Positions 296 to 15,122 of a stretch of DNA of 15,756 nucleotides are shown piece after piece (position 1 is the first letter of the stretch; each line of letters opens with the position of its first letter). The translations under genes and the position numbers were made by a program. This DNA is from JAWOFN01 sp046497505 [NCBI: bacterium] (lineage in GTDB: Bacteria; Blakebacterota; Blakebacteria; Blakebacterales). A model generated the notes under the pieces. It was not told the origin of the DNA and searched no databases. It worked only from the letters and a program-made list of their open reading frames with translations. The stretch covers positions 1 through 15,756 of the forward strand of contig JAWOFN010000046.1 in the NCBI GenBank assembly GCA_046497505.1. The letters run 5' to 3'.

Positions 296-3200
296 ATGAG
301 ACGGACCTCACGGATCTCTGGACGGATCCTCACGATCCTGGCGGCCTGGGCCTTCCTGCTCACGGCGCTGGCCCAGCCCGCTGCCGCGGACCCCATCAAG
401 TTCGCCCGCTATCCTCACACCAGCCACGGCAAGGTAGCTTTCACCTACCACGGCGACATCTGGGTGGCGGACCTGGACGGGAAGAACCCTTATCGTCTGA
501 CCGCACATGTCGCCATGGACGAGTTCCCGCGCTTCTCGCCCGATGGGAACTGGGTCGCCTTCAACAGCAACCGCATGGGGAACGACGACATCTACGTGGT
601 CCCTGTCACCGGAGGCGTGCCCCGACAGGTGACCTTCCATACCACCGGGGACCGGGTCCTCTACTGGACCCCGGACGGAGAGCGGATCCTCTTCAGCTCG
701 AGCCGCAGCGCCCACCCCTTCATGAGTCCCCTCTACACGGTGGCCGCCGAAGGGGGTCTCCCGGTGCCTATGGACATGGCCATGGGCGCGTCGGGGATGA
801 TCCGTCAGGACGGGAGCATGATCGCCTTCAACCGGAAGGGCTTCAGCTACTGGCGGAAGGGTTACCGGGGGAACAACAACACCGACATCTACGTGCAGGA
901 CCTGGGGACGAAGGAGATCACCCAGCTCACCGATTTGGACCTGAAGGCCTTCCGTGAGCACACCCAGGACGCCCATCCCATGTGGGGCGCGGACGGGATG
1001 ATCTACTTCATGAGCGAGAAGGACGGGATCTTCAACATCTGGAAGATCGCGCCCACCGGCGGTGACCCGGTGCAGGTCACCCGCCACCGGGCAGACGGGG
1101 TGCAGTACCCCTCCATCAGCCCCGACGGCCGGACCATCGTGTATGAGAACGAGTTCGAACTCTGGCGGCTGGACATCCCCGGCGGCCGGCCGCAGAAGAT
1201 CGCCGTGGACCTGGCCTTCGACCCGAAGGTCAACCAGGTGGAGTACCTGCGCGCTGAGGACCGGGCGGACGATTTCAGTCCCAGCCCCGATGGGGAAGAA
1301 GTGGCGGTGAGCTACCACGGTGAGATCGTCATCGTGCCCGCGGACCCGGAGAAGGGGGAGAAGCGGCAGGTCACCTCCTCGCCCTGGCGCGACTGGCGTC
1401 AGGTGTGGTCCCCGGACGGCAAGTACCTGGCCTACATCTCCGACGAGTCGCTGGAAGAGGAGATCTGGCTCTTCGACCTAGAGAGCGGTGAGCGGAGCAA
1501 GCTCACCGACCACGCCAGCCTGAAGTCCTCGCCCGTCTGGTCCCGTGACGGCAGCCGGCTTGCCTTCGAGGCCGCCAACCGGCTCTTCCTCGCCGAGGCG
1601 GCCAGCGGCCGGGTCCGGGAACTGGCCTACAACGAGGCGGGCGGCTACTCGGTCTCCGAGTTCAGCCCGGACGGCCGGTGGCTGGTCTATTCCCGCAGCG
1701 ACGAGGACCTGAACAGCGAGGTCTATCTCTACGACATCGATGAGCGGCGTGAGGTCAACGTCACGGACAACCCCTGGCGGGAGGGATCGGGTGCACTGAC
1801 CCCGGACGGGAAGTGGCTGCTCTTCAGCTCGAACCGGGACGACGGCACCAGCCACCTGTTCAAGGTCAGCCTGACACGGATGACCGAGGACCCCGAGGAC
1901 CCCCTGGTGAAGGCCCGCAAGGAGGAAGAGGCCTCGGGCGGACGGGACCGGGGCGACCAGGAGCAGGAAGAAGAGCAGCCGCCGGCCCTGACCATCGAGA
2001 CCGAGGGGATCGGCCGCAGGGCCATCCAGCTGACCTCCGGGAGCGAGGGGGTGTACGACTTCTTCCTCTCGGCCGACGGGAAGACGATCTACTACACGAC
2101 CCGGACCGAAGACGGCACCATACTCAAGTCGATCGGCCTGGACGGGGAGGACGACAAGGAAATAGCGGAGGTCGGGTCCTACCGCGTCATCCCCACCGCC
2201 GACCGGAAGATGGTCTTCTGGACCCAGCGGGATGGGCTCTACCGCATGCCGGTGAGCGGTCGGGGGAAGGAACAGGTGCGTTTCGACTTCACGGTCACCG
2301 TGGACCGGAAGAAGGAGTGGCGCCAGATCTTCCAGGAGAGCTGGCGCACCATGAAGTACCGCTTCTACGACGAGGACATGCACGGGGTGGACTGGGAGGC
2401 CATGCGGCGCAAGTACGAGCCGCTCCTCTCCTACGTCGGGGTCAACCAGGACCTCTACGACCTCACCAACGAGATGATCGGGGAGCTGAACGCCTCGCAC
2501 ACGGGTGTGAGCGGACCCAGCGGCATCGAGACCCCGGACACCTACCGCACCGCCTACCCGGGGTTCGAGCTGAAGCCGGACGGGCGGGCCTACCGGGTGA
2601 GTCACGTCTACCGGGACGGTCCCGCGGACCGGGAGTGGGTGGCCATCGAGGCGGGGGACTACCTGATGGCTATCGACGGGCAGGCCATCGAGCCCCCCGA
2701 CAACTACTGGAAGTTCCTCAACCATACCCTGAACGACTACGTGACCCTCACCGTGAGCTCCTCGGCCAGCGGTCGGGACAGCCGCGAGGTCCGGGTCCAG
2801 ACCGTGAACTCCCTCCGCAACATCCAGTACGAGGAGTGGGTCTGGCAGCGTCGGAAGATGGTCGAGGAGTGGTCGGACGGCCAGATCGCCTACGTCCACA
2901 TCCGGAGCATGAACCGGTCCTCCCTGGAGCGCTTCGAGAACGAGATCGACCGGTTCTGGAACGCCAAGGGGATCATCGTCGACATCCGCTATAACGGCGG
3001 CGGGAACATCGACCAGCAGCTGCTGGACATCCTGGAGCGGCGTCCCTACGAGTACTGGAACAACCGCTGGGGTGCCCGCTCGTGGGGACGCCGTCCCCGG
3101 CAGGCCATCGCCGGACCGAAGGTGATGCTCATCAACTGGCGCTCGGCCTCGGACAGCGAGGTCACCCCCAAGGGCTTCCGGGACCTGGGTCTGGGCACCA

Positions 3201-3484
3201 TCGTGGGCACGCCCACCTATGGGGCGGTCATCGCCACCGGGAGCTACGGCCTGCTCAACGGGGGCCGGATCCGCACCCCCGGTTCGCTGGTGGTGGCCTA
3301 CGACCCCACGAAACCGAACAACTACGGGGTGAACCTGGAGAACTACGGGGTCGCTCCGGACATATGGGTGGAGAACAGCCCGCAGGACGAGCTGGACGGG
3401 TTCGACCGCGAACTGAAGACGGCGGTGGACGAGGCGCTGAAGATGCTCGCCCAGGGGCGCTGGCAGTACGAAGGCGGCCGCTGA
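296..3484 (+). CDS. Exported Tricorn-type protease (peptidase family S41)
   Basis: This 1062-residue protein has the layout of Tricorn proteases, large serine peptidases that degrade oligopeptides. Residues 1-31 form a signal peptide (basic start, hydrophobic core, AAA before D32), so it should act outside the cytoplasm. Residues 35-660 hold WD40/TolB-like beta-propeller repeats with recurring SPDG motifs (81, 275, 330, 372, 457). An acidic low-complexity linker lies at about 530-566. The C-terminal half has a PDZ-like region (755-835) and the S41 core. Counterparts of the Tricorn catalytic residues are visible: Ser734-His735 in NASHTG, nucleophile Ser952 in RSASDSE, and Glu1015 in ENYGV. An open frame extends up to an ATG at 263, but the ATG at 296 has GGAG eight bases upstream and starts directly at the signal peptide. 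Length matches the family. A terminator follows at 3543. Confidence 0.93.
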   Translation: MRRTSRISGRILTILAAWAFLLTALAQPAAADPIKFARYPHTSHGKVAFTYHGDIWVADLDGKNPYRLTAHVAMDEFPRFSPDGNWVAFNSNRMGNDDIYVVPVTGGVPRQVTFHTTGDRVLYWTPDGERILFSSSRSAHPFMSPLYTVAAEGGLPVPMDMAMGASGMIRQDGSMIAFNRKGFSYWRKGYRGNNNTDIYVQDLGTKEITQLTDLDLKAFREHTQDAHPMWGADGMIYFMSEKDGIFNIWKIAPTGGDPVQVTRHRADGVQYPSISPDGRTIVYENEFELWRLDIPGGRPQKIAVDLAFDPKVNQVEYLRAEDRADDFSPSPDGEEVAVSYHGEIVIVPADPEKGEKRQVTSSPWRDWRQVWSPDGKYLAYISDESLEEEIWLFDLESGERSKLTDHASLKSSPVWSRDGSRLAFEAANRLFLAEAASGRVRELAYNEAGGYSVSEFSPDGRWLVYSRSDEDLNSEVYLYDIDERREVNVTDNPWREGSGALTPDGKWLLFSSNRDDGTSHLFKVSLTRMTEDPEDPLVKARKEEEASGGRDRGDQEQEEEQPPALTIETEGIGRRAIQLTSGSEGVYDFFLSADGKTIYYTTRTEDGTILKSIGLDGEDDKEIAEVGSYRVIPTADRKMVFWTQRDGLYRMPVSGRGKEQVRFDFTVTVDRKKEWRQIFQESWRTMKYRFYDEDMHGVDWEAMRRKYEPLLSYVGVNQDLYDLTNEMIGELNASHTGVSGPSGIETPDTYRTAYPGFELKPDGRAYRVSHVYRDGPADREWVAIEAGDYLMAIDGQAIEPPDNYWKFLNHTLNDYVTLTVSSSASGRDSREVRVQTVNSLRNIQYEEWVWQRRKMVEEWSDGQIAYVHIRSMNRSSLERFENEIDRFWNAKGIIVDIRYNGGGNIDQQLLDILERRPYEYWNNRWGARSWGRRPRQAIAGPKVMLINWRSASDSEVTPKGFRDLGLGTIVGTPTYGAVIATGSYGLLNGGRIRTPGSLVVAYDPTKPNNYGVNLENYGVAPDIWVENSPQDELDGFDRELKTAVDEALKMLAQGRWQYEGGR

Positions 3485-3542
3485 GGGTGCAGACGGTCTC
3501 AGGGTCCTCCGGAAGGGTCTCGGACCCTGACGGGGACCTTGA

Positions 3543-3582
3543 AGGGGGCGTCCGGGGCGACCCGGGCGTCCCTTCCTCTTTC
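3543..3582 (+). terminator. Intrinsic terminator after the Tricorn-type protease gene
   Basis: Arms 3545-3556 and 3561-3572 pair over 12 bp, with two G-U wobbles, around a GCGA tetraloop (3557-3560, GNRA type). The stem can extend by one G-U and one A-T pair. It is followed by the T-rich stretch TTCCTCTTTC. It begins about 60 nt after the protease stop codon. It is the strongest hairpin seen in the window. Confidence 0.75.
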
Positions 3583-4352: not shown

Positions 4353-4727
4353 TCAGCTCGAGGCGACGGTCCGGCTGAGCCTGCTGCCGGTCCGCAGGTC
4401 CACGGCCTGCCGCACCGGAGTCACATAGGCGAACCCGTCCCCGCGCTGCCCTGTGTGGGCCTGATCGGCGATGGCCTCGAGGATCGCATCGGTCCGGACA
4501 TGGGGGCACACCAGTTCGAGTCGGGCGAGGGTGGAGTAGCGCTCCACCAGCTCGAAGGAGTACTTGAAGTCCTTCGGGTCGACCCCCCGGCCCATGGCCT
4601 GCACGTCGATGATGGTCATTTGGCAGACGCCGAGGTTCTCAAGGGCACCGATCACGTCGGACACCCGTTCCGGCCGGATATAGGCTTTGATCTCGACGAG
4701 TCCCTGTTTGTTCTGTTCTTCGGTCAT
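4353..4727 (-). CDS. Divergent PII-family signalling protein in the cus operon
   Basis: This 124-residue protein matches PII (GlnB/GlnK) along its length. The clearest mark is TGQRGDGF (92-99) followed by AYVTPV and VDLRTG, equivalent to the C-terminal PII signature TGxxGDGK. The T-loop region (45-66) keeps its length but has Lys56 where GlnB has the uridylylated Tyr51, and Phe99 replaces the phosphate-contacting Lys90. Canonical uridylylation and standard ATP/2-oxoglutarate sensing are therefore unlikely. It starts 43 nt after the cusA stop on the same strand with only a weak GAGAG ribosome site, so it is probably the last gene of cusCBA. A divergent PII group (PII-NG) has been reported beside heavy-metal RND pumps; this gene fits that description. 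Inferred role: modulating or sensing for the pump, perhaps by binding metal or nucleotide. The partner is unknown. Confidence 0.85.
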   Translation of the reverse strand: MTEEQNKQGLVEIKAYIRPERVSDVIGALENLGVCQMTIIDVQAMGRGVDPKDFKYSFELVERYSTLARLELVCPHVRTDAILEAIADQAHTGQRGDGFAYVTPVRQAVDLRTGSRLSRTVASS

Positions 4728-4770: not shown

Positions 4771-7700
4771 TCAGTGGCCCACCCCCTTGTAGCGGAGCAC
4801 GCCTCGCTTCAGTTCCCATTCCTTGTAGAGACTCCAGGCCACAGGGAGCACGATCAGGATCAGGACCAGGCTGGTCAGGATCCCGCCGATGAGGGGTGTG
4901 GCCAGGGGCTTCATGACGTCGCTCCCGGTCCCGGTGCTCCACATGATGGGCAGCAGGCCGATGAGGCTGGTGGCCACGGTCATGAGCTTGGGGCGCAGAC
5001 GGAGCACACTGCCGTCGATGGCCGCCTCCCGGATGTCCTCCCTGGTGACATCCCCCTTGAGGATGCGCTTGTCCAGGGCCTCGTTGAGGTAGACCAGCAT
5101 CACCACGCCTGTCTCCACCGCCACCCCGAAGAGGGCGATGTAGCCGACCCATACCGCCACGCTGTAGTTGTATCCCAGACCCCACTGGAGCAGCACCCCG
5201 CCGACCAGTGCGAAGGGTACGGAGAGCACGACCAGGAACGCCTCCCCGAAACTGTGGAAGGTGAAGTACAGGAGCAGCATGATGATGAGCAGCACCGCAG
5301 GCATGAGGGTCATGAGCCGCTTGCGGGCGCGGACCTGGTTCTCATACTGACCGGACCATCCTACATAGTAGCCCTCAGGCAGCTCGAGCTGCTCCTCGAG
5401 GGCCACCTTCGCCTCGTCCACGAAACTCCCCATGTCACGGCCCCGGACGTTCAGCATCACCAGCGAGCGCAGCATCCCGTTCTCGCTGTTGATCATGGGG
5501 GGACCCGCGTTGATGCTGATGTTCGCGACCTGGTCCAGGGGGATCTGCGCCCCCGTGGTGGCGGGGACGAGCACCCGTCCCAGCGCCTCGGGGTCCTGGC
5601 GGTAATCGGGGAGGTAGCGCACCCGCACGGGGAAACGCTCCCGGCCTTCCACCGTGGTGGTCAGGTTCATGCCGCCGATGGCGGTCTCCACCACCATCTG
5701 GGCATCCTGTACGCTCACGCCGTACCGTGCGGCTTCGCGGCGGTCGATCTCGATGTCGAGGTACTTCCCGCCCACCACCCGTTCGGCGTAGACATCCGCC
5801 GCGCCGGGGATGGTACGCATGATCTCCTCCGCCTCCAGCGCCAGTTCGGCCAGCTGTTCGAGGTCGGGACCGAAGATCTTCACGCCCAGGTCGGTCCGCA
5901 CCCCGGTGGCCAGCATCTGGATCCGGTTGATGATGGGCTGGGTCCAGCCGTTGGTCAGGCCGGGGATCTGGAGCTTGGAATCCAGTTCCCCGATGAGGTC
6001 GGGCTTGGTCATCCCCTCACGCCACTCCTCCCTCGGCTTCAGGAGGATGATGGTCTCGATCATGCTCACCGGGGCCGGGTCGGTGGCCGTCTCGGCCCGG
6101 CCCACCTTGCCCAGCACATACTCCACCTCCGGGATCTCCTTGATGAGCTTGTCGGTGACCTGGAGCAGGCGCTTGGCCTCGGTCACACTCACGTTGGGCA
6201 GGGTCACGGGCATGTAGAGGAGGCTGCCCTCGTCCAGGGAGGGCATGAACTCCCGTCCCCGGCTGGCGGCGATGGGGATGGTGGCGATGAGGATGAGCAG
6301 GGTCATGGCCAGGGTGCTCCAGCGGAAGCGGAGCACGAAGACCTGGATCTTGTGGTAGATGGCCACCAGGACCCGCATGAGCGGGTTCTCGGACTCGGCC
6401 CGCATGTGCCCCCTCATGAACACGGTCATGAGGACGGGGACCAGGGTGATGGCGATGAAGGCCGCCGCGGTCATGGTGAAGGTCTTGGTGAAGGCCAGGG
6501 GCCGGAAGAGGCGTCCCTCCTGGCCGGTGAGGAGGAAGACCGGTACGAAGGAGAGGATGATGATCATGAGGCTGAAGAAGATGGGGCGGCCCACCTGCTT
6601 GGCGGAGACGAGCACGGTCTTCACGACATTGCTCCGAGCCTCCTCGTCCCCCTCCGATATATGGCGGAAGGCGTTCTCCACCATCACCACCGAGGCATCC
6701 ACGATCACCCCGATTGCGATGGCCACCCCGCCCAGCGACATGATGTTCGAGGTGATGCCGATGTAGTACATGAAGATGAAGCTGATGAGCACCGCCACGG
6801 GCAGGCTGATGATGATGGCCATCGCGCTCCGGAAGTGGAGCAGGAAGACCAGCACGATCAGGGCCACGATGATCGCTTCCTCCAGCAGCGTATGCCGGAG
6901 AGTGTCCACCGCGTTCTCGATCAGCTCGGAACGGTCGTATGCCGTGGTCACGATGACGCCGTCGGGGAGCCCGGACTTGAGCTCCTCCATCTTCACCTTC
7001 ACCCGGTCGATGACGTCCTTGGCGTTCTCTCCGTAGCGCATCACCACGATGCCGCCGACGACCTCGCCCTCACCGTTCTCATCCAGCAGGCCGCGCCGGA
7101 TGTCGCCGCCCATCTGGACGGTCCCCAGGTTGCGCACGTAGATCGGGGTGCCGTCGGGACTGGCCCCGACCACGATGTTCTCCACGTCCTCCACCGACTC
7201 GATGTAGCCCAGGCCCCGGACCACGTACTCCATGTCCGTCATCTCCAGGAGCCGTCCCCCGACATCGTTGTTGCTCTGCCGCACCGACATGACCACGTGT
7301 CTGAGGGGGATGTCGTAGGCCAGGAGCTTGGAGGGATCCACGTCGATCTGGTACTGGCGGACGAACCCGCCGATGGAGGCGACCTCGCTCACACCGGGTA
7401 CGGCGGTGAGCTGGTAGCGGATGTACCAGTCCTGGATGGCCCGGAGATCGCCGAGGTCGTGGCGGTCGCTCTTCAGCGTGTACCAGTAGACGTGTCCCAC
7501 GCCGGTCCCGTCGGGACCCAGCGTGGGGGTCACACCCTGGGGGAGGAGGCTCTGGGCGTAGTTCAGCTTCTCCAGGACCCGGCTCCGGGCCCAGTAGATG
7601 TCCACATCATCCTCGAAGATCACGTAGATGATGCTGGTGCCGAACATGCTCGTGGCCCGCACCGTCTTCACCCTGGGAAGGCCCTGGAGGGCCGTGGAGA

Positions 7701-7905
7701 GGGGATAGGTGATCTGGTCCTCGATCACCTGGGGGCCCCGTCCCATCCAGTCGGTCGCCACGATGACCTGGTTGTCGCTCAGGTCGGGTATGGCGTCCAG
7801 CGGGGTGTTCTGGAGGGCCCAGACCCCCCACCCGATGCCCAGTGCGAACAGGATCAGTACGACCAGGCGGTTGCGTACGCTTGCTTCGATAAGTCGTTCG
7901 ATCAT
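4771..7905 (-). CDS. cusA: Cu(I)/Ag(I) efflux RND transporter CusA
   Basis: Inner-membrane pump subunit of 1044 residues, normal for the heavy-metal RND family. It exports Cu(I)/Ag(I) through CusB and CusC using the proton gradient. The N-terminus (MIERLIEASVRNR, then a membrane helix and NTPLDAIPDLSDNQV) is characteristic. The three substrate methionines of E. coli CusA (573, 623, 672) align with Met565, Met615 and Met664 with the same spacing (50 and 49 residues), in LLYMP, APVSM and RIQM. This supports copper/silver rather than Zn/Co/Ni specificity. Proton-relay counterparts are Asp403 (IGVIVDAS), Glu931 (GVAVETG) and Lys973 (RPKLMTV). Helix clusters lie at about 340-495 and 865-1025, with large periplasmic loops between. 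The start lies 4 nt after the cusB stop with no strong ribosome site, suggesting translational coupling. Confidence 0.97.
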   Translation of the reverse strand: MIERLIEASVRNRLVVLILFALGIGWGVWALQNTPLDAIPDLSDNQVIVATDWMGRGPQVIEDQITYPLSTALQGLPRVKTVRATSMFGTSIIYVIFEDDVDIYWARSRVLEKLNYAQSLLPQGVTPTLGPDGTGVGHVYWYTLKSDRHDLGDLRAIQDWYIRYQLTAVPGVSEVASIGGFVRQYQIDVDPSKLLAYDIPLRHVVMSVRQSNNDVGGRLLEMTDMEYVVRGLGYIESVEDVENIVVGASPDGTPIYVRNLGTVQMGGDIRRGLLDENGEGEVVGGIVVMRYGENAKDVIDRVKVKMEELKSGLPDGVIVTTAYDRSELIENAVDTLRHTLLEEAIIVALIVLVFLLHFRSAMAIIISLPVAVLISFIFMYYIGITSNIMSLGGVAIAIGVIVDASVVMVENAFRHISEGDEEARSNVVKTVLVSAKQVGRPIFFSLMIIILSFVPVFLLTGQEGRLFRPLAFTKTFTMTAAAFIAITLVPVLMTVFMRGHMRAESENPLMRVLVAIYHKIQVFVLRFRWSTLAMTLLILIATIPIAASRGREFMPSLDEGSLLYMPVTLPNVSVTEAKRLLQVTDKLIKEIPEVEYVLGKVGRAETATDPAPVSMIETIILLKPREEWREGMTKPDLIGELDSKLQIPGLTNGWTQPIINRIQMLATGVRTDLGVKIFGPDLEQLAELALEAEEIMRTIPGAADVYAERVVGGKYLDIEIDRREAARYGVSVQDAQMVVETAIGGMNLTTTVEGRERFPVRVRYLPDYRQDPEALGRVLVPATTGAQIPLDQVANISINAGPPMINSENGMLRSLVMLNVRGRDMGSFVDEAKVALEEQLELPEGYYVGWSGQYENQVRARKRLMTLMPAVLLIIMLLLYFTFHSFGEAFLVVLSVPFALVGGVLLQWGLGYNYSVAVWVGYIALFGVAVETGVVMLVYLNEALDKRILKGDVTREDIREAAIDGSVLRLRPKLMTVATSLIGLLPIMWSTGTGSDVMKPLATPLIGGILTSLVLILIVLPVAWSLYKEWELKRGVLRYKGVGH

Positions 7906-7909
7906 CGTA

Positions 7910-9409
7910 TTACCCGTTCGGGTCCTCGTTCGTGTCGTTGCCGCCGCCGGTGTCCATGCCGCCGTGGTCCATCCCCGCGTGTCCGCCGCCTCCGGCCATC
8001 GCCTTCAGCTGGCTCTCCGAGTCGAGGAGGAAGCCCCCCGAGGAGGCCACGGCCGTACCCGGCTCCAGCCCCTCGAGGATCTGGTAGTACGCCCCGACCC
8101 GCAGGCCGAGGGTGACGTTGCGCGGGCTGAACCGGTTGGTCTCGACCTCTTTCCACACCACGGTGCGGCGTCCGGTGTTGATGACCGCCGAGGCGGGGAC
8201 GACGACAGACTCGGCCACCGGGGCCTGGATGACCGCCTCACCGAACATATTCGGCTTGAGGGCGCCGTCCCGGTTGGAGAACTCGGCGCGGATGGCCACG
8301 GTCCGGGTCTTCGGCTCCACGACCGGATCGATGAAGGTGATCCGACCGGTGAAGGTCCGGCCCGGGTGGGCCCGGCTGGTCACGTGGACCGTCTGCCCCA
8401 TCTCCAGGAAGGGGAGTTCGAACTCGTAGACGTCGGCGTAGAGCCAGAGGCCGGAGAGGTCGGCGATGTCCATGAGGGTCTGACCCTGCTGGACGTACTG
8501 CCCCTCCTGCACCGCCTTGCGCAGGACGGTCCCGGATGAGGGAGCGTTGATGGTCATGGTGGTGCGGACCTCCCGGGTACGCTCCAGCTCCTCGATCTGG
8601 GCCTCGCTGATGCCCCAGAGCAGGAGCCGTTCCCGGGCGCCCCGGCGCAGGCGCTCACGGGAGCTCTTCAGCGTTTCGCTCACCGCGTCCGCGTCGGGAC
8701 CCTCCAGGGTGGAGAGGTACTCCTCCTGGGTCTGGATGAGGGCGGGGCTGTAGATCTCCATCAGGGGCTGTCCCTTGCGGACCACAGCGCCTTTGAAATC
8801 CACGTGGAGCTCCTCGACCCGGCCCCCGATCCATGAGGCCACGTTGGCGGTGCGCTGCTCGTCCACGTCGAACCGGCCCACGGCGGTCACGTGCTTGACC
8901 AGGGGCCGGACCTCGGCGTGGGAGACCGCCACGTTGGCCAGCACCCGCTGACGGGGGGTGATGGATACGTCCACCAGCATCCCCTCTTCGGCCTCGGTCA
9001 TCTCGCTGGAGGATTCCCTGCGCGGGACCAGGCTCATGCCGCAGATGGGGCAGTCGCCCGGGGAATCCCGCACCACCGAGGGGTGCATGGGGCAGGTGTA
9101 GACCGTCTCGCCCTCGGGTGTCTGTACGGCCTCGCCGCCCTCGTGCAGGTGTTCGGCGTGCTCATCCTCGGTCATCCCCATGTCGTCCGCGCTCTGCCGC
9201 TCCTTGGGGACCAGACTCATGCCGCAGATGGGGCAGTCCCCGGGCTCGTCCTCGACCACCGAGGGGTGCATGGGGCAGGTGTAGTAGGTGCCGGTCTGTT
9301 CCTGCTGTGCGTCCTCCGACCCGCCGAAGACCTGCACAGCGGCGTAGGTGCCGCCCGCCAGCACCACGACCAGGGCCGCGACGATCCATATGCTCTTCGA
9401 GTTCATCAT
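7910..9409 (-). CDS. cusB: CusB-type periplasmic adaptor with two tandem heavy-metal-binding domains
   Basis: Membrane-fusion subunit (499 residues) that links CusA to the outer-membrane channel. Residues 6-28 are an N-terminal membrane anchor. Two copies of the short heavy-metal-binding module follow at about 43-69 and 104-130, each with the pattern YTCPMHPSVV...GDCPICGMSLVP, rich in Cys, Met and His ligands. The adaptor body has lipoyl/barrel halves at about 188-222 and 285-320 (IGGRVEELHVDFKG; APSSGTVLRKAVQEG), an alpha-hairpin at 225-280 and beta-barrel/membrane-proximal domains to 465. The tail (470-490) is rich in Gly, His and Met, another likely metal site. The gene starts with ATGATG. 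GGGAG lies 3 nt from the first ATG and 6 nt from the second, so the second (9406) may be the true start. It begins 9 nt after the cusC stop. Confidence 0.95.
   Translation of the reverse strand: MMNSKSIWIVAALVVVLAGGTYAAVQVFGGSEDAQQEQTGTYYTCPMHPSVVEDEPGDCPICGMSLVPKERQSADDMGMTEDEHAEHLHEGGEAVQTPEGETVYTCPMHPSVVRDSPGDCPICGMSLVPRRESSSEMTEAEEGMLVDVSITPRQRVLANVAVSHAEVRPLVKHVTAVGRFDVDEQRTANVASWIGGRVEELHVDFKGAVVRKGQPLMEIYSPALIQTQEEYLSTLEGPDADAVSETLKSSRERLRRGARERLLLWGISEAQIEELERTREVRTTMTINAPSSGTVLRKAVQEGQYVQQGQTLMDIADLSGLWLYADVYEFELPFLEMGQTVHVTSRAHPGRTFTGRITFIDPVVEPKTRTVAIRAEFSNRDGALKPNMFGEAVIQAPVAESVVVPASAVINTGRRTVVWKEVETNRFSPRNVTLGLRVGAYYQILEGLEPGTAVASSGGFLLDSESQLKAMAGGGGHAGMDHGGMDTGGGNDTNEDPNG
9024..9283 (-). 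repeat. Tandem duplication encoding the CusB metal-binding module
   Basis: Two 77-nt segments, 9024-9100 and 9207-9283, are 183 nt (61 codons) apart and differ at only about ten positions, mostly in the middle. The segment between them encodes an acidic, His-containing spacer (DDMGMTEDEHAEHLHEGG). The DNA-level similarity points to fairly recent duplication, gene conversion or strong constraint. Confidence 0.85.
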
Positions 9410-9418
9410 CTTCTCCCG

Positions 9419-10714
9419 TTACTCCTGCTGGGGTGCGTCACGCCGGGCGGGGTCGCCCACCAACGCTTCCAGTTCGGCTGTCCGGCGACGGGCATCCACT
9501 TCTACCCGCACCGCCTCGAGCTGATAGTTGAACAGCGTGGTCTGGGCACTCAGGAGGGTCAGGAAGTCCACCTGGTCCACCCGGTAGCCGGAGAGGGTGC
9601 TGCTCAGCACGCCCTCCGACTGGGGGAGGATCTGCTCGGTGTAGAGGTCGGTGAGACGACGGGTCCTCCTCAGTTCGGCCACCAGGCGTTCCACCTCGCC
9701 CTGGATCTGCAGTTCCATGTCCCGGATCCTGTAGTCCCGCTGGGTGAGACGCGCCTCTTCCTCACGCACCGCCCGGTCCTGCTTGCTGCCCGCCCAGAGG
9801 GGTACCTGTACACTCACCATGGCAGTGAGGAAATCGGGGCGCCCGCCGTCCCGCTGGCCGTAGGAGGCGCTGGCACTCCAGTTGGGGAGCCGCATCCGCT
9901 CGGCCAGGTCGATGGCTGCCTGCCGACGCTCCCGCTCGGCCCTGGCCACCAGCAGGGCGGGACTGTGTTCCATCGCCCGAACGGCCAGGGAGTCGGCGGG
10001 AGCCAGCATCTGTCCGCCCTCCGCGGTGATCGGCGCTGCCCGCACCGGCGTCGAGAGGGGCATGTCACGGAGCGCGTTGAGACGGCTGACCAGCCCGCTC
10101 CGCTGCTCCTCCAGACCGATGAGGCGCTCGGTGAGGCGGGAGCGTTCCAGTTCGGCCTTCAGCACATCCTGCTGGATGCCCGAGCCGGTTCTGTAACGGG
10201 TCTCGGCCACCTGGACGAACTGGTCCAGCAGCGCCTGGTTCTCCTGCACCACCCGGATGCGCTCGTCCAGGAAGTAGAGGTCCAGCCAGGTCAGGCGGGC
10301 CTGCTTCCTGAGTTCTTCCCTCGTCCGATCCAGCATCAGCCGGCTGGTCTCCACGCCGGCCTCCGCCACGGTGGACCGGGCGCCCCGAACCCCGGGAGCC
10401 GGGAACGCCTGGCTCAGCGTGAGCTGCTTTTGGGTCATCGGCTCCTGATCGAAAACGAAGGTGTCCAGGGGAAGGCTCATCAACGAGAAGCCCACCATCG
10501 GGTCGGGGAGGGCGCCGGCCTGTGGCACACGCTCCTCGGCGGCCTCGATGGCCGATACCATGCTCGAGAGCCCGGGGTTGCGGTCGAGGACCTGTTCCAC
10601 GTATTCCCCCACGGCGAGGGGTGGTCCGACGCTCCCTTCCTGGGCCCGGGCCGGGGCGGCCAGGAGCAGTCCGAAGAGTGCCAGGATCTGTATCGATAGG
10701 ATGTGTCGTCTCAT
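9419..10714 (-). CDS. cusC: CusC-like outer-membrane efflux channel (OEP/TolC family)
   Basis: Outer-membrane partner of CusBA, 431 residues, within the usual range for the OEP family. Residues 1-24 are a signal peptide (LLLAAPARAQ). Unlike E. coli CusC there is no lipobox cysteine, so it is not predicted to be a lipoprotein. Two OEP repeats can be traced, each with long amphipathic helices (EEERVPQAG-type N-terminal helix; ALDYQLEAVRVEVDARR-like C-terminal helix region near 400-415) and the AFPAPGVRG and QVPLWAGSKQ segments seen in metal-efflux OEPs. It is first of four co-directional genes with gaps of 9, 4 and 43 nt. The ribosome site is weak (GGA six bases from the ATG). A sigma54 promoter lies just upstream, giving a leader of roughly 37 nt. 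Confidence 0.93.
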   Translation of the reverse strand: MRRHILSIQILALFGLLLAAPARAQEGSVGPPLAVGEYVEQVLDRNPGLSSMVSAIEAAEERVPQAGALPDPMVGFSLMSLPLDTFVFDQEPMTQKQLTLSQAFPAPGVRGARSTVAEAGVETSRLMLDRTREELRKQARLTWLDLYFLDERIRVVQENQALLDQFVQVAETRYRTGSGIQQDVLKAELERSRLTERLIGLEEQRSGLVSRLNALRDMPLSTPVRAAPITAEGGQMLAPADSLAVRAMEHSPALLVARAERERRQAAIDLAERMRLPNWSASASYGQRDGGRPDFLTAMVSVQVPLWAGSKQDRAVREEEARLTQRDYRIRDMELQIQGEVERLVAELRRTRRLTDLYTEQILPQSEGVLSSTLSGYRVDQVDFLTLLSAQTTLFNYQLEAVRVEVDARRRTAELEALVGDPARRDAPQQE

Positions 10715-10762
10715 GGGTCATCCGGTTCGGGTGCAGGTGGATCCGATATGCGCTCATGTAAC

Positions 10763-10778
10763 GCAAGTACCGTGCCAA
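10763..10778 (-). promoter_or_regulatory. Sigma54 (-24/-12) promoter of the cusCBA-PII operon
   Basis: On the minus strand this reads TTGGCACGGTACTTGC, a complete match to the consensus YTGGCACGNNNNTTGC, with the near-invariant GG and GC at the correct spacing. The predicted start is near 10751, about 37 nt before the cusC ATG. It lies in the gap after a gene for an NtrC-class activator, the class of protein that sigma54 promoters require. Promoter use is inferred; the motif match is direct. Confidence 0.88.
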
Positions 10779-10871
10779 CGTGCTGGCCGACGGGCGAGGG
10801 GATGTGAGGCCCGATGAAGGGGTTCGCCGTTCGGGTGAGTGTGAGGTCACCGGCCACGGCCGGGCCGGAGA

Positions 10872-10897
10872 TGATTCAAATCAGACAACAGATGTTG
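10872..10897 (-). promoter_or_regulatory. Paired palindromes, candidate activator-binding sites for the sigma54 promoter
   Basis: Two 12-bp palindromes lie in an AT-richer island: TGATT-CA-AATCA (10872-10883) and CAACA-GA-TGTTG (10886-10897). Each has 5-bp arms around a 2-bp centre, with centres 14 bp apart. They lie about 125 and 140 bp upstream of the predicted cusC start, the usual distance for NtrC-type enhancer sites. The two half-site sequences differ, so the binding assignment is inference. Confidence 0.5.
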
Positions 10898-10912
10898 GAT
10901 ATGAAGCAGTTC

Positions 10913-10928
10913 CAGCCCTGGAGGGCCG
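10913..10928 (-). terminator. Weak hairpin just after the response-regulator gene
   Basis: CGGCCC and GGGCTG on the minus strand can pair (one G-U) around a 4-nt loop a few bases after the regulator stop codon. No T tract follows, so readthrough into cusC is possible. It marks the likely boundary between the regulator transcript and the sigma54-driven pump operon. Confidence 0.25.
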
Positions 10929-10931
10929 GTG

Positions 10932-12302
10932 TCACCCCTCGATGCCGTACTTCTGCATCCGGTAGATGAGCGTGTTCCGGGTGATCCCCAGGGAGCGGGC
11001 GGCCTGGGACTGGTTCCCCTCATTCCGGGCAAGGGCCGCCTCCAGGAGCTGTCTCTCCATTTCATCCAGGGAGAGTCCGGTATCCAGCATCCGGTCTGCC
11101 AGACGCCCGGCTTCCGGGGGGACCGACCCGACGTTATCGGGGAGCTGGTCCGCCGTGATGCGGTCCGAATCGGTCATCACCAGCATCCGCTCCACCGTGT
11201 TCTCCAGCTCCCGCACGTTCCCGGGCCAGGAGTAGTCCTGAAGGCGGCTGTAGACCTCCGGGTCGACCGAGACCATCGGTCGGGCCTGCTCCCTGCTGTG
11301 CACACGAAGGAAGTGGTCGAAGAGGAGGGGGATGTCCTCGCGGCGCTCCCGCAGCGGCGGGAGCTTGATGGGGACCACACAGAGCCGGTAGTAGAGGTCC
11401 TCACGGAACCGTCCCGCGGCGACCGCCTTCTTGAGGTCCACGTTGGTGGCGGCGATGACCCGCACGTCCACCGGGACCGGCTGTTCGGCCCCCACCTTGT
11501 CCACCGTACGTTCCTGGAGGACGCGGAGCAGGCGGACCTGCACCTGGAGGGGGAGTTCGGAGACCTCATCCAGGAAGACCGTCCCCCCCTCGGCCGCCTG
11601 GAACTTGCCATCCTTGTCCCGGGTGGCCCCGGTGAAGGCCCCTTTCACATGGCCGAAGAGTTCGGACTCGAGCAGCGATTCGGGGATCGCGCCGCAGTTG
11701 ATCGGTACGAACGGCCGGGCGGTACGGGCGCTGTTCACGTGGATGGATCGAGCGAGGAGTTCCTTGCCCGTTCCGCTCTCTCCCTGCACCAGGACCGTGG
11801 CGTCGGTGGCCGAGACGCGCCGGGCGATCCGATAGACCTCCTGCATCCTGCCCGATCGTCCCACCATCCCCTCCAGGTCGTACTGTTCCTGGATCAGCGA
11901 GCGGAGCTGCCGGTTCTCCTTCCGAAGGTCCTGGATCTCCAGAGCTTTCCCGACCGTGGTCAGGAGTTCCTCCCGCTCGAACGGTTTGGTCAGGAAGTCG
12001 TAGGCACCCTGGCGCAGGGCCTCGATGGCGTTGTCCACGGTGGCGTAGGCCGAGATGACCACGACCGGCGTCTCCGGGAGCCTCCGGGTGAGTTCCGCCA
12101 GCAGTTCGAGGCCGTCCAGTTCGGGCATCTGGAGGTCGGTGAGGATCAGGTCGAACTGCTGGTTTTCCAACACCTCCAGGGCCGCACGACCATCCTCCGC
12201 CTCGACGGTCTCATGGCCCGCCTTGTCCAGCTGGGCCGTCAGGGTGCGTCGGAAGGAATCGTCGTCGTCCACCACCAGGACCCGGTGCTCCCGTTCATTC
12301 AT
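10932..12302 (-). CDS. NtrC-family sigma54-dependent response regulator
   Basis: A 456-residue activator with all three NtrC-class domains. The receiver (6-120) has acidic residues 12-14, phosphoacceptor Asp56 (LILTDLQMP) and Lys106 (FLTKPF). The AAA+ domain (about 146-375) has Walker A GESGTGK (174-180), the sigma54-contacting GAFTGA loop intact (221-226) and Walker B VFLDE (242-246). The Fis-type helix-turn-helix is at 426-453 (NQSQAARSLGITRNTL). The frame stays open up to 12425, but the ATG at 12302 has GGAGGG seven bases upstream and starts directly at the receiver. Its start overlaps the kinase stop in ATGAATGA, typical of a co-translated pair. The intact GAFTGA predicts that it activates sigma54 promoters. 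The perfect one upstream of cusC is the obvious target. Confidence 0.95.
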   Translation of the reverse strand: MNEREHRVLVVDDDDSFRRTLTAQLDKAGHETVEAEDGRAALEVLENQQFDLILTDLQMPELDGLELLAELTRRLPETPVVVISAYATVDNAIEALRQGAYDFLTKPFEREELLTTVGKALEIQDLRKENRQLRSLIQEQYDLEGMVGRSGRMQEVYRIARRVSATDATVLVQGESGTGKELLARSIHVNSARTARPFVPINCGAIPESLLESELFGHVKGAFTGATRDKDGKFQAAEGGTVFLDEVSELPLQVQVRLLRVLQERTVDKVGAEQPVPVDVRVIAATNVDLKKAVAAGRFREDLYYRLCVVPIKLPPLRERREDIPLLFDHFLRVHSREQARPMVSVDPEVYSRLQDYSWPGNVRELENTVERMLVMTDSDRITADQLPDNVGSVPPEAGRLADRMLDTGLSLDEMERQLLEAALARNEGNQSQAARSLGITRNTLIYRMQKYGIEG

Positions 12303-13401
12303 GTCCAGTCCCTCCAGCCCAGACGGGGAGGGAGAGGACGAAGTCCGCCCCCCCCTCGGGACGGTCCTCGGCCCGGATGGTCCCTCCGTGGGCTTCGATG
12401 ATGGCGTATGCGACCGATAGGCCAAGACCGGTACCTTCCTTCCGTGTCGTGAAGAAGGGATCGAACAGTTTCTCCTTCACCGAGGAAGCAATTCCCGGGC
12501 CATCGTCCTTGACGTGGATCCGGACCCTCTCCTCTCCGGGGTCCTCTTCGACCTCGATCTCAACCCGTCCCCCCTCCTCCTGTGCCTGGATGGCGTTCAG
12601 CACCAGGTTGACCAGGACCTGGGAGAGCTGGGCCTCATCCGCCTGGACCGGCTCGATGGCTGCAGGCAGCTCGTAGGAGAGGTCGGCCTTGTTCCGCTCG
12701 GCCTCCTTGTTCAGGAGGCGGAGGACCTGGGGAATGAAGCGCCGCAGGTCGACCGGGCCGAAGGAGGGCGGGGAGGGACGGGCGAAGGAGAGGAAATCGT
12801 CCAGCAGGTGCTGCAGACGCCGGGTCTCCTTGCTGATGATGTCGGCGAACTCCTGGGAGGGCAGGTCGTCGGGGATGTCGTCCAGGAGCAGGTCCACCGC
12901 GCTCTTGATGGATCCCAGGGGGTTGCGGATCTCGTGGGCCATGCCGGCGGCCAGTTGACCCGCAGCCGAGAGGCGGTCCGCCCTCCGTATCTGCTCCATG
13001 GAGTCCTGGAGCTGGGCGTAGGCCTGCTCCAGTTCCGCCGCCGCCTCCTGGTAGCGCCGGTGCTGCCTGTGCTCCAGGTCGGCCAGTACCCCCGTGATGG
13101 CCCCCACCACGAAGTACATGATCATCTCGCCGTACCGTCCCGCGTTGTCGGGAGGCGTGTGGGCCCAGTGGATCAGGATGTGGGGCAGGTACAACAGGGC
13201 AGAGAGCACCGCCGTGACGAGTCCCCCGCGGAGCCCGTACCACCAGGCGCCGAAGAGGATCGGCATGTAATACAGCCGCCTCCAGATCTGGTGCAGGAGG
13301 GGCTGGTCCACCGGGGTGGACAGATGGAGTAGGGTCACCAGGGCGAGCATGCCGCCGAGGGCGGCCAGACGCTGGGTCCGGGTGAGCTGTGTGGTCTCCA
13401 T
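12295..13401 (-). CDS. Membrane sensor histidine kinase, NtrB/ZraS-like
   Basis: A 368-residue kinase. The N-terminal third has about four membrane helices (roughly 9-25, 43-56, 59-77, 91-108) with short loops and no large periplasmic sensor domain. One loop, LPHILIHWAHTPPDN, contains three histidines (74, 78, 81). A coiled-coil (110-140) leads to the HisKA domain with phosphoacceptor His156 in MAHEIRNPLG. The ATPase domain has the N box (VNLVLNAIQ, near 263-271), G1 DDGPGI (299-304), DPFFTT (314-319) and G2 GTGLGLS (323-329). A longer frame starts at 13422, but the ATG at 13401 has GAGAGG nine bases upstream, so it is preferred. It is paired with the downstream sigma54 activator through an 8-nt overlap. 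Copper or silver sensing is inferred only from the neighbouring pump genes. Confidence 0.93.
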   Translation of the reverse strand: METTQLTRTQRLAALGGMLALVTLLHLSTPVDQPLLHQIWRRLYYMPILFGAWWYGLRGGLVTAVLSALLYLPHILIHWAHTPPDNAGRYGEMIMYFVVGAITGVLADLEHRQHRRYQEAAAELEQAYAQLQDSMEQIRRADRLSAAGQLAAGMAHEIRNPLGSIKSAVDLLLDDIPDDLPSQEFADIISKETRRLQHLLDDFLSFARPSPPSFGPVDLRRFIPQVLRLLNKEAERNKADLSYELPAAIEPVQADEAQLSQVLVNLVLNAIQAQEEGGRVEIEVEEDPGEERVRIHVKDDGPGIASSVKEKLFDPFFTTRKEGTGLGLSVAYAIIEAHGGTIRAEDRPEGGADFVLSLPVWAGGTGHE

Positions 13402-13429
13402 GGTCGGCGGCCTCTCGCGCATGCACGGA

Positions 13430-13494: not shown

Positions 13495-14850
13495 TCAGGC
13501 GCGGCGCACCAGGACCTCGTCGTTCCTCGAACATCCGTCCGATCCCGGCCACCAGGCCCATGCTGCTCCACAACGGATCAGGATCCCGTGCTCGGCGCCC
13601 ATGCCGCTCCCGACCATGAGGGCCGTGGGGGTGGCCAGGCCCAGGGCGCAGGGGCAGGCGATGACCAGGACCGCGACCATGGAGACCACGGCCAGGGTGA
13701 TCACGCCCAGACCGGGATCCACCCAGGGGAGGAAGGACCCGGCGGCGGCCAAGCTGCTCATGAGACCGGGCAGGGCCACCCAGAGGACCACGGTGAGCAG
13801 GGCCACGCCGATGACCACGGGCACGAAGACCCGGGTGACCCGGTCCGCGAACTCCTGGATCGGCACCTTGGTGCCCTGGCACTCCTCCACGAGTTTGATG
13901 ACCTGGCTCAGGAAGGTGTCCTTCCCGACCCGGGTCGCTTCGACCTTCAGCAGACCCTCCTGATTGACCGTGGCGCCGATGACCTCGTCCCCCTCTCTGC
14001 GGGTGACGGGCATCGACTCGCCGGTGGCCATCGACTCGTCCACCGCGCTCTCCCCATCACGGACCACCCCGTCGGTGGGGATCTTCTCGCCCGGCCAAAC
14101 CACCATGAGGTTGCCCGCACGTACTTCGTCTATGGGGACCTCGACCTCCTGGCCGTCCCGAAGGACCCGGGCGGTCTTGGCGCCCAGCTCCAGCAGTTTG
14201 CGGATGGCCTGGGAGGCCCGTCCCTTCGCGGCCTCCTCCACATACCGTCCGGTGAGGTGGAAGGCCATGATCATGGCGGAGACGCCGGCGTAGTTGGCGA
14301 TGGGGAAGAAGAAGGATGCCGGCCCGGTCAGCAGGGAGGCCCCGGTCCCCAGAGCGATCAGGGAGTCCATGTTGGGGGCCCCCCGTATCCCCGCCTTCCA
14401 GCCGCTCCGGTAGGTATCCCGTCCGACCCAGAAGAGGACCGGGAGGGCCAGCACGATCATGCCGGCGTTGTAGACGGTCTCCGAAGGCCAGAGGATGCCG
14501 AAGAACATCTCAGCGAACATCCAGAGGATGATCGGGACGGTGAAGAGCCAGGCGACCTTCATGCGATACCGCGCCCCCTGCATCTTGCGTTCGTCGTCCG
14601 ATACCTCCTCGGTGTCCCCGCCGGTCTCCTCCGACGGCTTGTCGAGGACCTGGTAGCCCGTCGCGTCCACGGCGGCGGTCAGATCCTCCCGGTCCGCCGT
14701 TCCCCGCACGGTCTTCACCCGGGCCCGTTCGGCGGCCAGGTTGACCGAGGCCTCCATGACGCCGTCCACTCCGGCCAGGGCATCCTCGACGTGTCCCGCA
14801 CAGAAGGCGCAGGTCATGCCCTCCACGGCCAGCGTGATCTCCTTCTCCAC
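13495..14850 (-). pseudogene. copA: Copper P1B-type ATPase (CopA-like), truncated before the catalytic P-domain
   Basis: The 451-residue product begins as a normal CopA: an HMA metal-binding domain with GMTCAFC (11-17), membrane helices from about 98, the actuator domain with TGES (276-279), and the copper-transport motif CPC (399-401) in [16 protein letters not shown]. After GILIR (426) the match stops. The last 25 residues are unrelated, and the DKTGTLT phosphorylation site, nucleotide-binding domain and last two helices are absent. None of the three frames beyond the break encodes them, so this is a deletion or rearrangement rather than a simple frameshift. The protein cannot hydrolyse ATP for transport. 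A GTG start at 14850 is chosen because GGGAG lies eight bases upstream. The frame remains open to a GTG at 14925 that has no ribosome site. A misassembly at the break is possible. Confidence 0.82.
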
Positions 14851-14939
14851 GGCAGGTTCTCCCTTCCGTTTCCGGCCCTCCGGGCTCTGCCCGGTGGGGC
14901 CGATGGTTCTTGGCGTTCGATGCACAGGGTAGGGGTAAG

Positions 14940-15107: not shown

Positions 15108-15122
15108 TGGCACGGCATTTGA
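15108..15122 (+). promoter_or_regulatory. Near-consensus sigma54 element on the plus strand
   Basis: TGGCACGGCATTTGA matches the -24 box perfectly and the spacing of the -12 box, but ends in TTGA rather than TTGC, losing part of the near-invariant GC. If used, transcription would begin near 15134, about 50 nt before the ATG at 15185. It carries the same TGGCACG core as the cusC promoter. Confidence 0.3.

Follow-up and report, generated by a model that had tools for sequence, protein, structure and literature searches.

A predicted sigma54 promoter and an NtrC-class regulator at a Cus-type copper/silver efflux operon

Background

In textbook accounts, an OmpR-class regulator acting with sigma70 controls the Cus pump; E. 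coli CusR is of this kind. Without an activator, promoters of the sigma54 type are silent, so that their basal expression is very low and their induction sharp. A kinase combined with an NtrC-class regulator and sigma54 is known from ZraSR, which responds to metal or envelope stress and has ZraP as its target instead of a pump.

Activators of the sigma54 type have been described for copper genes before; what follows refers to the accessible parts of the articles cited. In M. xanthus CorSR-curA, a sigma54-type regulator controls the copper genes of its own cluster, which have predicted sigma54 promoters (PMC3707914). Unlike the locus described here, its targets are a multicopper oxidase, a P-type ATPase and others, with no RND pump, and CorS has a predicted periplasmic sensor. 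The promoter of the CusA/CusB genes MXAN989 cusAB is listed as a target of the M. xanthus enhancer-binding protein Nla28, but Nla28 is a starvation regulator and the listed site, CCGCACG-N4-TTGCT, is a poor match at -24 (PMC9765219). The cus and sil genes of Cupriavidus metallidurans are reported to be RpoD-dependent (PMC9045368). In Geobacter, the P-II-like gene PII-NG is clustered with a CzcABC metal RND pump, as a P-II-like gene is with the pump here, but that operon is reported to be under Fur, whereas we propose sigma54 (PMC7726332).

A comparison of sigma54 regulons mentions ZraSR and heavy metals, and the words 'copper' and 'RND' are absent from its main text as accessible (PMC12316311). 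Copper signal systems of marine bacteria have been surveyed, with 43 hits recorded in Caldithrix abyssi, and the accessible text of the survey lacks 'NtrC', 'AtoC' and 'ZraR' (PMC10141476). The accessible parts of four further articles (PMC2864759, PMC4641369, PMC8836040, PMC2621215) contain no sigma54-Cus case. A kinase-regulator-CusCBA module was not described in the titles and abstract openings among the matches listed for the open-licence literature, the scope of this search being that literature.

Genes of the locus

The window is the whole stretch of DNA analysed here, 15,756 nt from a member of the Blakebacterota. Its minus strand carries, in order, a truncated P-type ATPase gene, a kinase gene, a regulator gene, the element TTGGCACGGTACTTGC, and cusC-like, cusB-like, cusA-like and P-II-like genes (Table 1). 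The locus resembles E. coli CusRS/CusCFBA in that a Cu/Ag RND pump is apparently controlled by a two-component system. It differs in that the regulator is of the NtrC class, with a predicted sigma54 promoter, and in that a P-II gene follows the pump genes.

Table 1. Features of the locus and the evidence on which each assignment rests.
Feature	Coordinates	Strand	Evidence
Membrane histidine kinase	12295..13422	-	HisKA, HATPase; N-terminus weakly DUF4118-like, below Pfam cut-off
NtrC-class response regulator	10932..12302	-	Receiver, sigma54 AAA+ with GAFTGA, Fis-type HTH
Regulator-cusC intergenic, expected enhancer region	10779..10931	-	Short inverted repeats, candidates only
Sigma54 -24/-12 promoter element (predicted), TTGGCACGGTACTTGC	10763..10778	-	Sequence match; relatives
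cusC-like outer-membrane efflux protein	9419..10714	-	Family/profile matches
cusB-like adaptor with two heavy-metal-binding (HMBD) motifs	7910..9409	-	
cusA-like RND pump	4771..7905	-	Family match; methionine triad in alignment
P-II family protein, operon end (PII-NG-like position)	4353..4727	-	Family match

The regulator is NtrC-class and not OmpR-class by architecture, with Pfam matches to Sigma54_activat (243.1 bits), a receiver domain and HTH_8, and its GESGTGKE and GAFTGA motifs are intact. An activator with an intact sigma54-interaction domain is therefore encoded near TTGGCACGGTACTTGC. It falls short of the equivalog cut-offs of both ZraR (423.3 bits versus 760) and AtoC (506.6 bits versus 714). 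The kinase gene overlaps the start of the regulator gene by 8 nt. Its product has short loops with recurrent histidines and no large periplasmic metal-binding domain, unlike a CusS-type sensor, and its two best family matches, AtoS and ZraS, are both below cut-off.

The pump belongs to the CusA/CzcA family (TIGR00914, 1145.7 bits; cut-off 701.45) and is homologous to E. coli CusA (1063 bits). All three copper-binding methionines of the E. coli protein, which we take to be M573, M623 and M672, are present in the alignment. Thus, copper/silver is favoured over zinc/cobalt, and we infer that copper/silver is the metal handled. The P-II-like protein resembles classical P-II proteins only weakly.

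The predicted promoter

The initial annotation had claimed a full -24/-12 match on the minus strand, about 50 nt before cusC and adjoining the gene for an NtrC-class activator, and each of these claims holds. TTGGCACGGTACTTGC is an exact match, with the -24 GG at 10776-10775 and the -12 GC at 10764-10763, spaced as in a sigma54 promoter. Between its end and the ATG of the cusC-like gene (10714) lie 48 nt, and it begins 153 nt after the end of the regulator gene; the expected transcription start is at about 10751. The motif TGGCACGN4TTGC has one exact match in the window and five matches at no more than two mismatches (4.07 expected), and among these the exact one alone stands out. The form TGGCAYRN4TTGC occurs once on the two window strands together, whereas 200 dinucleotide shuffles average 0.015 occurrences, and the probability of a chance occurrence on the motif strand of the 217-nt regulator-cusC intergenic region is 0.0006 (5000 shuffles). 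Judged by its sequence and by the relatives described below, the promoter is probably real and functional.

A scan of 10600-11000 for sigma70-type promoters found none, a result of little information since the scan expects 0.0 in shuffles. A near-consensus sigma54 site at 12502-12488 lies within the kinase gene and was taken as chance. TGGCACGGCATTTGA, at 15108-15122 on the plus strand, has one mismatch to the sigma54 consensus, with a methyltransferase-like ORF (by eye) about 435 nt further on; as a promoter it is probably also a chance match.

Cus loci with and without a sigma54-type regulator

A CusA search of species genomes gave 343 relatives, of which the best 80 loci (top identity 62%) were used; the counts rest on 63 of them, those whose operon is preceded by 500 nt or more. 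A sigma54-type regulator is present in 4 of the 63 (L019, L021, L023 and L065), some of the 63 ending at contig edges, where a regulator could be overlooked. All four have a same-strand TGGCAYRN4TTGC site, with at most one mismatch, within about 500 nt, versus none of the 59 loci that lack such a regulator (Fisher P=1.7e-6), in which the best site has two (15 loci), three (38) or four mismatches (6). A strict GG/GC scan of the 80 loci missed sites beside cusC because the -12 C varies in the relatives, and was set aside for the mismatch count.

A regulator search of 40 genomes of the phylum of L019 (Calditrichota) returned 30 loci, and 20 of these were extended. In 12 of the 20, regulator and cusC share a strand and cusC lies downstream, at less than 1.8 kb in ten and about 4.7 kb in two; several of the remaining eight regions are cut by contig ends. 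Eight of the 12 have cusB, full-length cusA and a P-II-like gene at the same operon place as in the window. L153 has no P-II-like gene, L147 has a cut cusA, L156 is cut within cusC, and L157 has a cusC fragment only, cusBA being absent from 16 kb. In several relatives (L141 at 3162-3557, L065 and others), the promoter is separated from cusC by a small membrane-protein ORF that the window lacks.

A site with one mismatch lies 160-490 nt before cusC in all 12 Calditrichota loci and in L021, L023 and L065 (15/15). L153 is the same locus as L019, four of the 15 are shared with the CusA set, and L145, L146 and L151, as well as L143 and L148, are close kin. The scan upstream of the relatives' cusC genes that the initial annotation had proposed as a check therefore came out in favour of the promoter, with near-consensus sites in 4/4 loci with the regulator, 0/59 without it and 15/15 of the wider set. 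Its expectation that the GG/GC pairs be conserved was borne out in part: the -24 GG is kept in 15/15, but the terminal -12 C in 1/15, the mismatch being the final C in 14 loci and position 7 in L147.

In the Calditrichota relatives, the missing C is probably a trait of the lineage and not evidence against sigma54. The 40 genomes contain 26 copies of TTGGCACRN4TTGCW (control 7) and 213 of TTGGCACRN4TTGDW (control 61). With an enrichment of about 3.5-fold for either form, C is not favoured at -12 in this phylum, which suggests a lineage-specific sigma54 promoter consensus. The sigma54 DNA-binding domain (rpoN) was found in 12/12 of the relatives' genomes. The window element keeps the classical -12 GC. 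Among the Calditrichota sigma54-like sites listed, the -12 element reads mostly TTGT or TTGA instead of TTGC.

A palindrome upstream of the relatives' promoters

A palindrome of the TGTAGAATATTCTACA type is present upstream of the promoter in 12/12 Calditrichota loci. The best copy is exact in seven, has one mismatch in four and two in one, and starts 102-173 nt before the -24 T in 11 loci (309 nt in L153). A second, mostly weaker copy (2-5 mismatches) is located 22-23 bp away in 11 of the 12. Tandem sites about two helical turns apart are the expectation for cooperative enhancer binding. The palindrome is the likely enhancer of the Calditrichota Cus promoters.

Exact TGTAGAATATTCTACA occurs at 17 sites in 16 of the 40 Calditrichota genomes, and the reversed control at none. 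Its neighbours are cusC (11), P-II-led clusters (2), P-type ATPases (2) and other genes (2), and both P-II-led copies have exact TGGCAC-N5-TTGC sites. In genome G212, cusC is preceded by the palindrome and by a TGGCACG-N4-TGGC site. Of the 16 palindrome loci scanned, three (L199, L202 and L203) lack a sigma54 site of at most one mismatch within 500 nt; the sole site of this quality in L194 lies on the other strand from the neighbouring ATPase gene. The genes beside the palindrome may form a metal regulon. The recurrent palindrome provides a testable predicted binding site and a handle for metal-response regulons in poorly studied phyla. By eye, its neighbours in L235, L234, L232, L233 and L237 encode Met-rich, HMA-like, DUF302-like and SHOCT-like proteins.

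In the window, the best copy of TGTAGAATATTCTACA has 6/16 mismatches (P=0.049) and was rejected. The recognition helix of the window regulator reads ITRNTLIYR, versus IPRHxLxYR in the palindrome-bearing group, and this difference may explain the absence of the palindrome. The window intergenic region holds five inverted repeats of the 5+2+5 type versus a shuffle mean of 0.19, a count noticed after looking and made up of differing sequences; two of the five overlap just after the regulator stop. The inverted repeats CAACATCTGTTG, TGATTTGAATCA and CCGGCCGTGGCCGG are centred about 114, 100 and 79 nt before the -24 T. The centres of TGATTTGAATCA and CCGGCCGTGGCCGG are 21 bp apart, like the relatives' tandem copies but differing in sequence, and this pair is a lead for a candidate enhancer. 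A search of the same region for direct repeats gave nothing convincing.

Desulfuromonad-type loci and regulator phylogeny

A kinase search of 198 genomes of the phylum of L056's genome (labelled Desulfuromonadaceae) gave 17 loci in 16 genomes at E<=1e-70. Eleven were extended, and a twelfth, L243, is the same as L226, which has no Cus genes in 14 kb. The order kinase-regulator-cusC-cusB-cusA is found in L260, L262 and L264; the regulator lies 0.75 kb before cusC in L267, and cusC follows the regulator by 4.4 kb in L261. L263 and L266 have the kinase-regulator pair followed by Met/His-rich genes, with a multicopper-oxidase-like gene (by eye) also in L263. In L268 the kinase is divergent and the regulator is followed by a weak cusC-like gene; L258, L259 and L265 have no Cus genes in the extended DNA. 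The promoter is exact in L261, with one mismatch in L260, L263 and L266, two in L262 and L267, and three in L264. The same seven loci have TGTAGAATATTCTACA-type palindromes with 1-3 mismatches (shuffle P<=0.001), and six of them a weaker copy (4-5 mismatches) 20-22 bp away.

In a 57-row regulator tree, the window groups with L258 and L259 (98/93). Their sister is a clade of 27 rows (97/92), made up of regulators from Desulfuromonad-type and Calditrichota genomes and of two identical rows from a single genome of L021's class, and the joint 30-row clade has support of 100/95. In the DNA fetched for the 27 rows, 17 have Cus genes and two more have copper-type genes. L258 and L259, the nearest regulators to that of the window, have neither Cus genes nor a sigma54 site with at most one mismatch in the 5.9 and 7.3 kb covered. 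A CusA search of the genomes of these regulators found one CusA near a contig start (G460) and a distant pump of 30% identity (G496), and a class-wide search for close kin of the window returned just the genomes of L258 and L259.

The NtrC-class regulators of L021, L023 and L065 fall outside the clade of the window, and TGGCAYR-N4-TTGG sites are present by their Cus operons. The sigma54-Cus wiring has thus probably arisen or been re-wired more than once. Regulator searches of 200 genomes of a Gemmatimonadota-type phylum (best about 50% identity) and of the class of L021 (149 genomes) each gave 0/30 returned loci with Cus genes within about 1.5 kb. The design had been called uncommon, a claim that does not survive the comparison: it recurs in Calditrichota, in the Desulfuromonad-type phylum and, with another regulator lineage, in Bacteroidetes/Ignavibacteriae loci. 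It is a recurrent, little-described variant of copper control, not a one-off.

Proposed control of the pump

We put at roughly 0.8 the probability that the window encodes a self-contained copper/silver response module, in which a sigma54-driven pump operon would be accompanied by its own kinase and activator. The membrane histidine kinase would sense copper/silver stress in the envelope and phosphorylate the adjacent NtrC-class activator, which would bind enhancer sites within about 150 nt upstream of the promoter. By ATP hydrolysis, the activator would open RNA polymerase-sigma54 bound at 10778-10763, and the opened promoter would drive cusC-cusB-cusA-PII. The pump that textbooks place under sigma70 would here be under sigma54, as first proposed, and both gene linkage and the comparison of relatives support this. 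Against it are the lack of the palindrome in the window, the nearest regulators without Cus genes, the -12 C kept in 1/15 and the three Desulfuromonad-type Cus loci with promoters at 2-3 mismatches.

The kinase, with short loops and no large periplasmic metal-binding domain, and with AtoS and ZraS as its top family matches (both below cut-off), would also suit a ZraSR-type system. The sigma54 promoter would then be real and fired by the adjacent activator, but the signal would be general envelope stress and the pump one output among others; the two closest regulators (L258, L259) and that of L226, none of them beside Cus genes, agree with this. We regard such a signal as possible but unlikely, since 19/27 rows of the sister clade have Cus (17) or other copper-type (2) genes and the palindrome neighbours are mostly metal genes. 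An unlinked enhancer-binding protein might instead act on the element, as Nla28 does for cusAB in M. xanthus (PMC9765219, accessible part), and that the window has candidate enhancers only would agree with this; the regulator followed by cusC in 12/20 extended Calditrichota regions, and in Desulfuromonad-type loci, makes this improbable. That TTGGCACGGTACTTGC is a chance match, and that cusCBA transcripts start instead at a sigma70-type promoter missed by the scan or arise by read-through, is very improbable given P=0.0006 in the intergenic region and 0/59 comparable sites in Cus loci without a sigma54-type regulator, even with a single sequence of the window's lineage, only candidate enhancers in it and a sigma70 scan too strict to exclude such a promoter.

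Beyond the copper/silver module itself, we lean towards a wider reading. Short-loop kinases and NtrC-class activators, with a tandem palindromic enhancer in the main branch, may constitute an undescribed Cu/Ag two-component family that commonly controls Cus pumps, and other metal genes too, across several phyla as a standard regulator. The sigma54-Cus wiring would have arisen or been re-wired a second time in Bacteroidetes/Ignavibacteriae, with an NtrC-class regulator outside the family. The window would belong to a diverged branch in which the recognition helix, and with it the enhancer, has changed.

Gene upstream of the kinase

Just upstream of the kinase, a copper-type P-type ATPase gene (13495-14925, minus strand) comprises the N-terminal half only. 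The phosphorylation domain was not matched in this gene, which ends soon after GAEHGILIR; metal-binding and actuator domains were matched. It is either a broken copA-like gene or an assembly junction.
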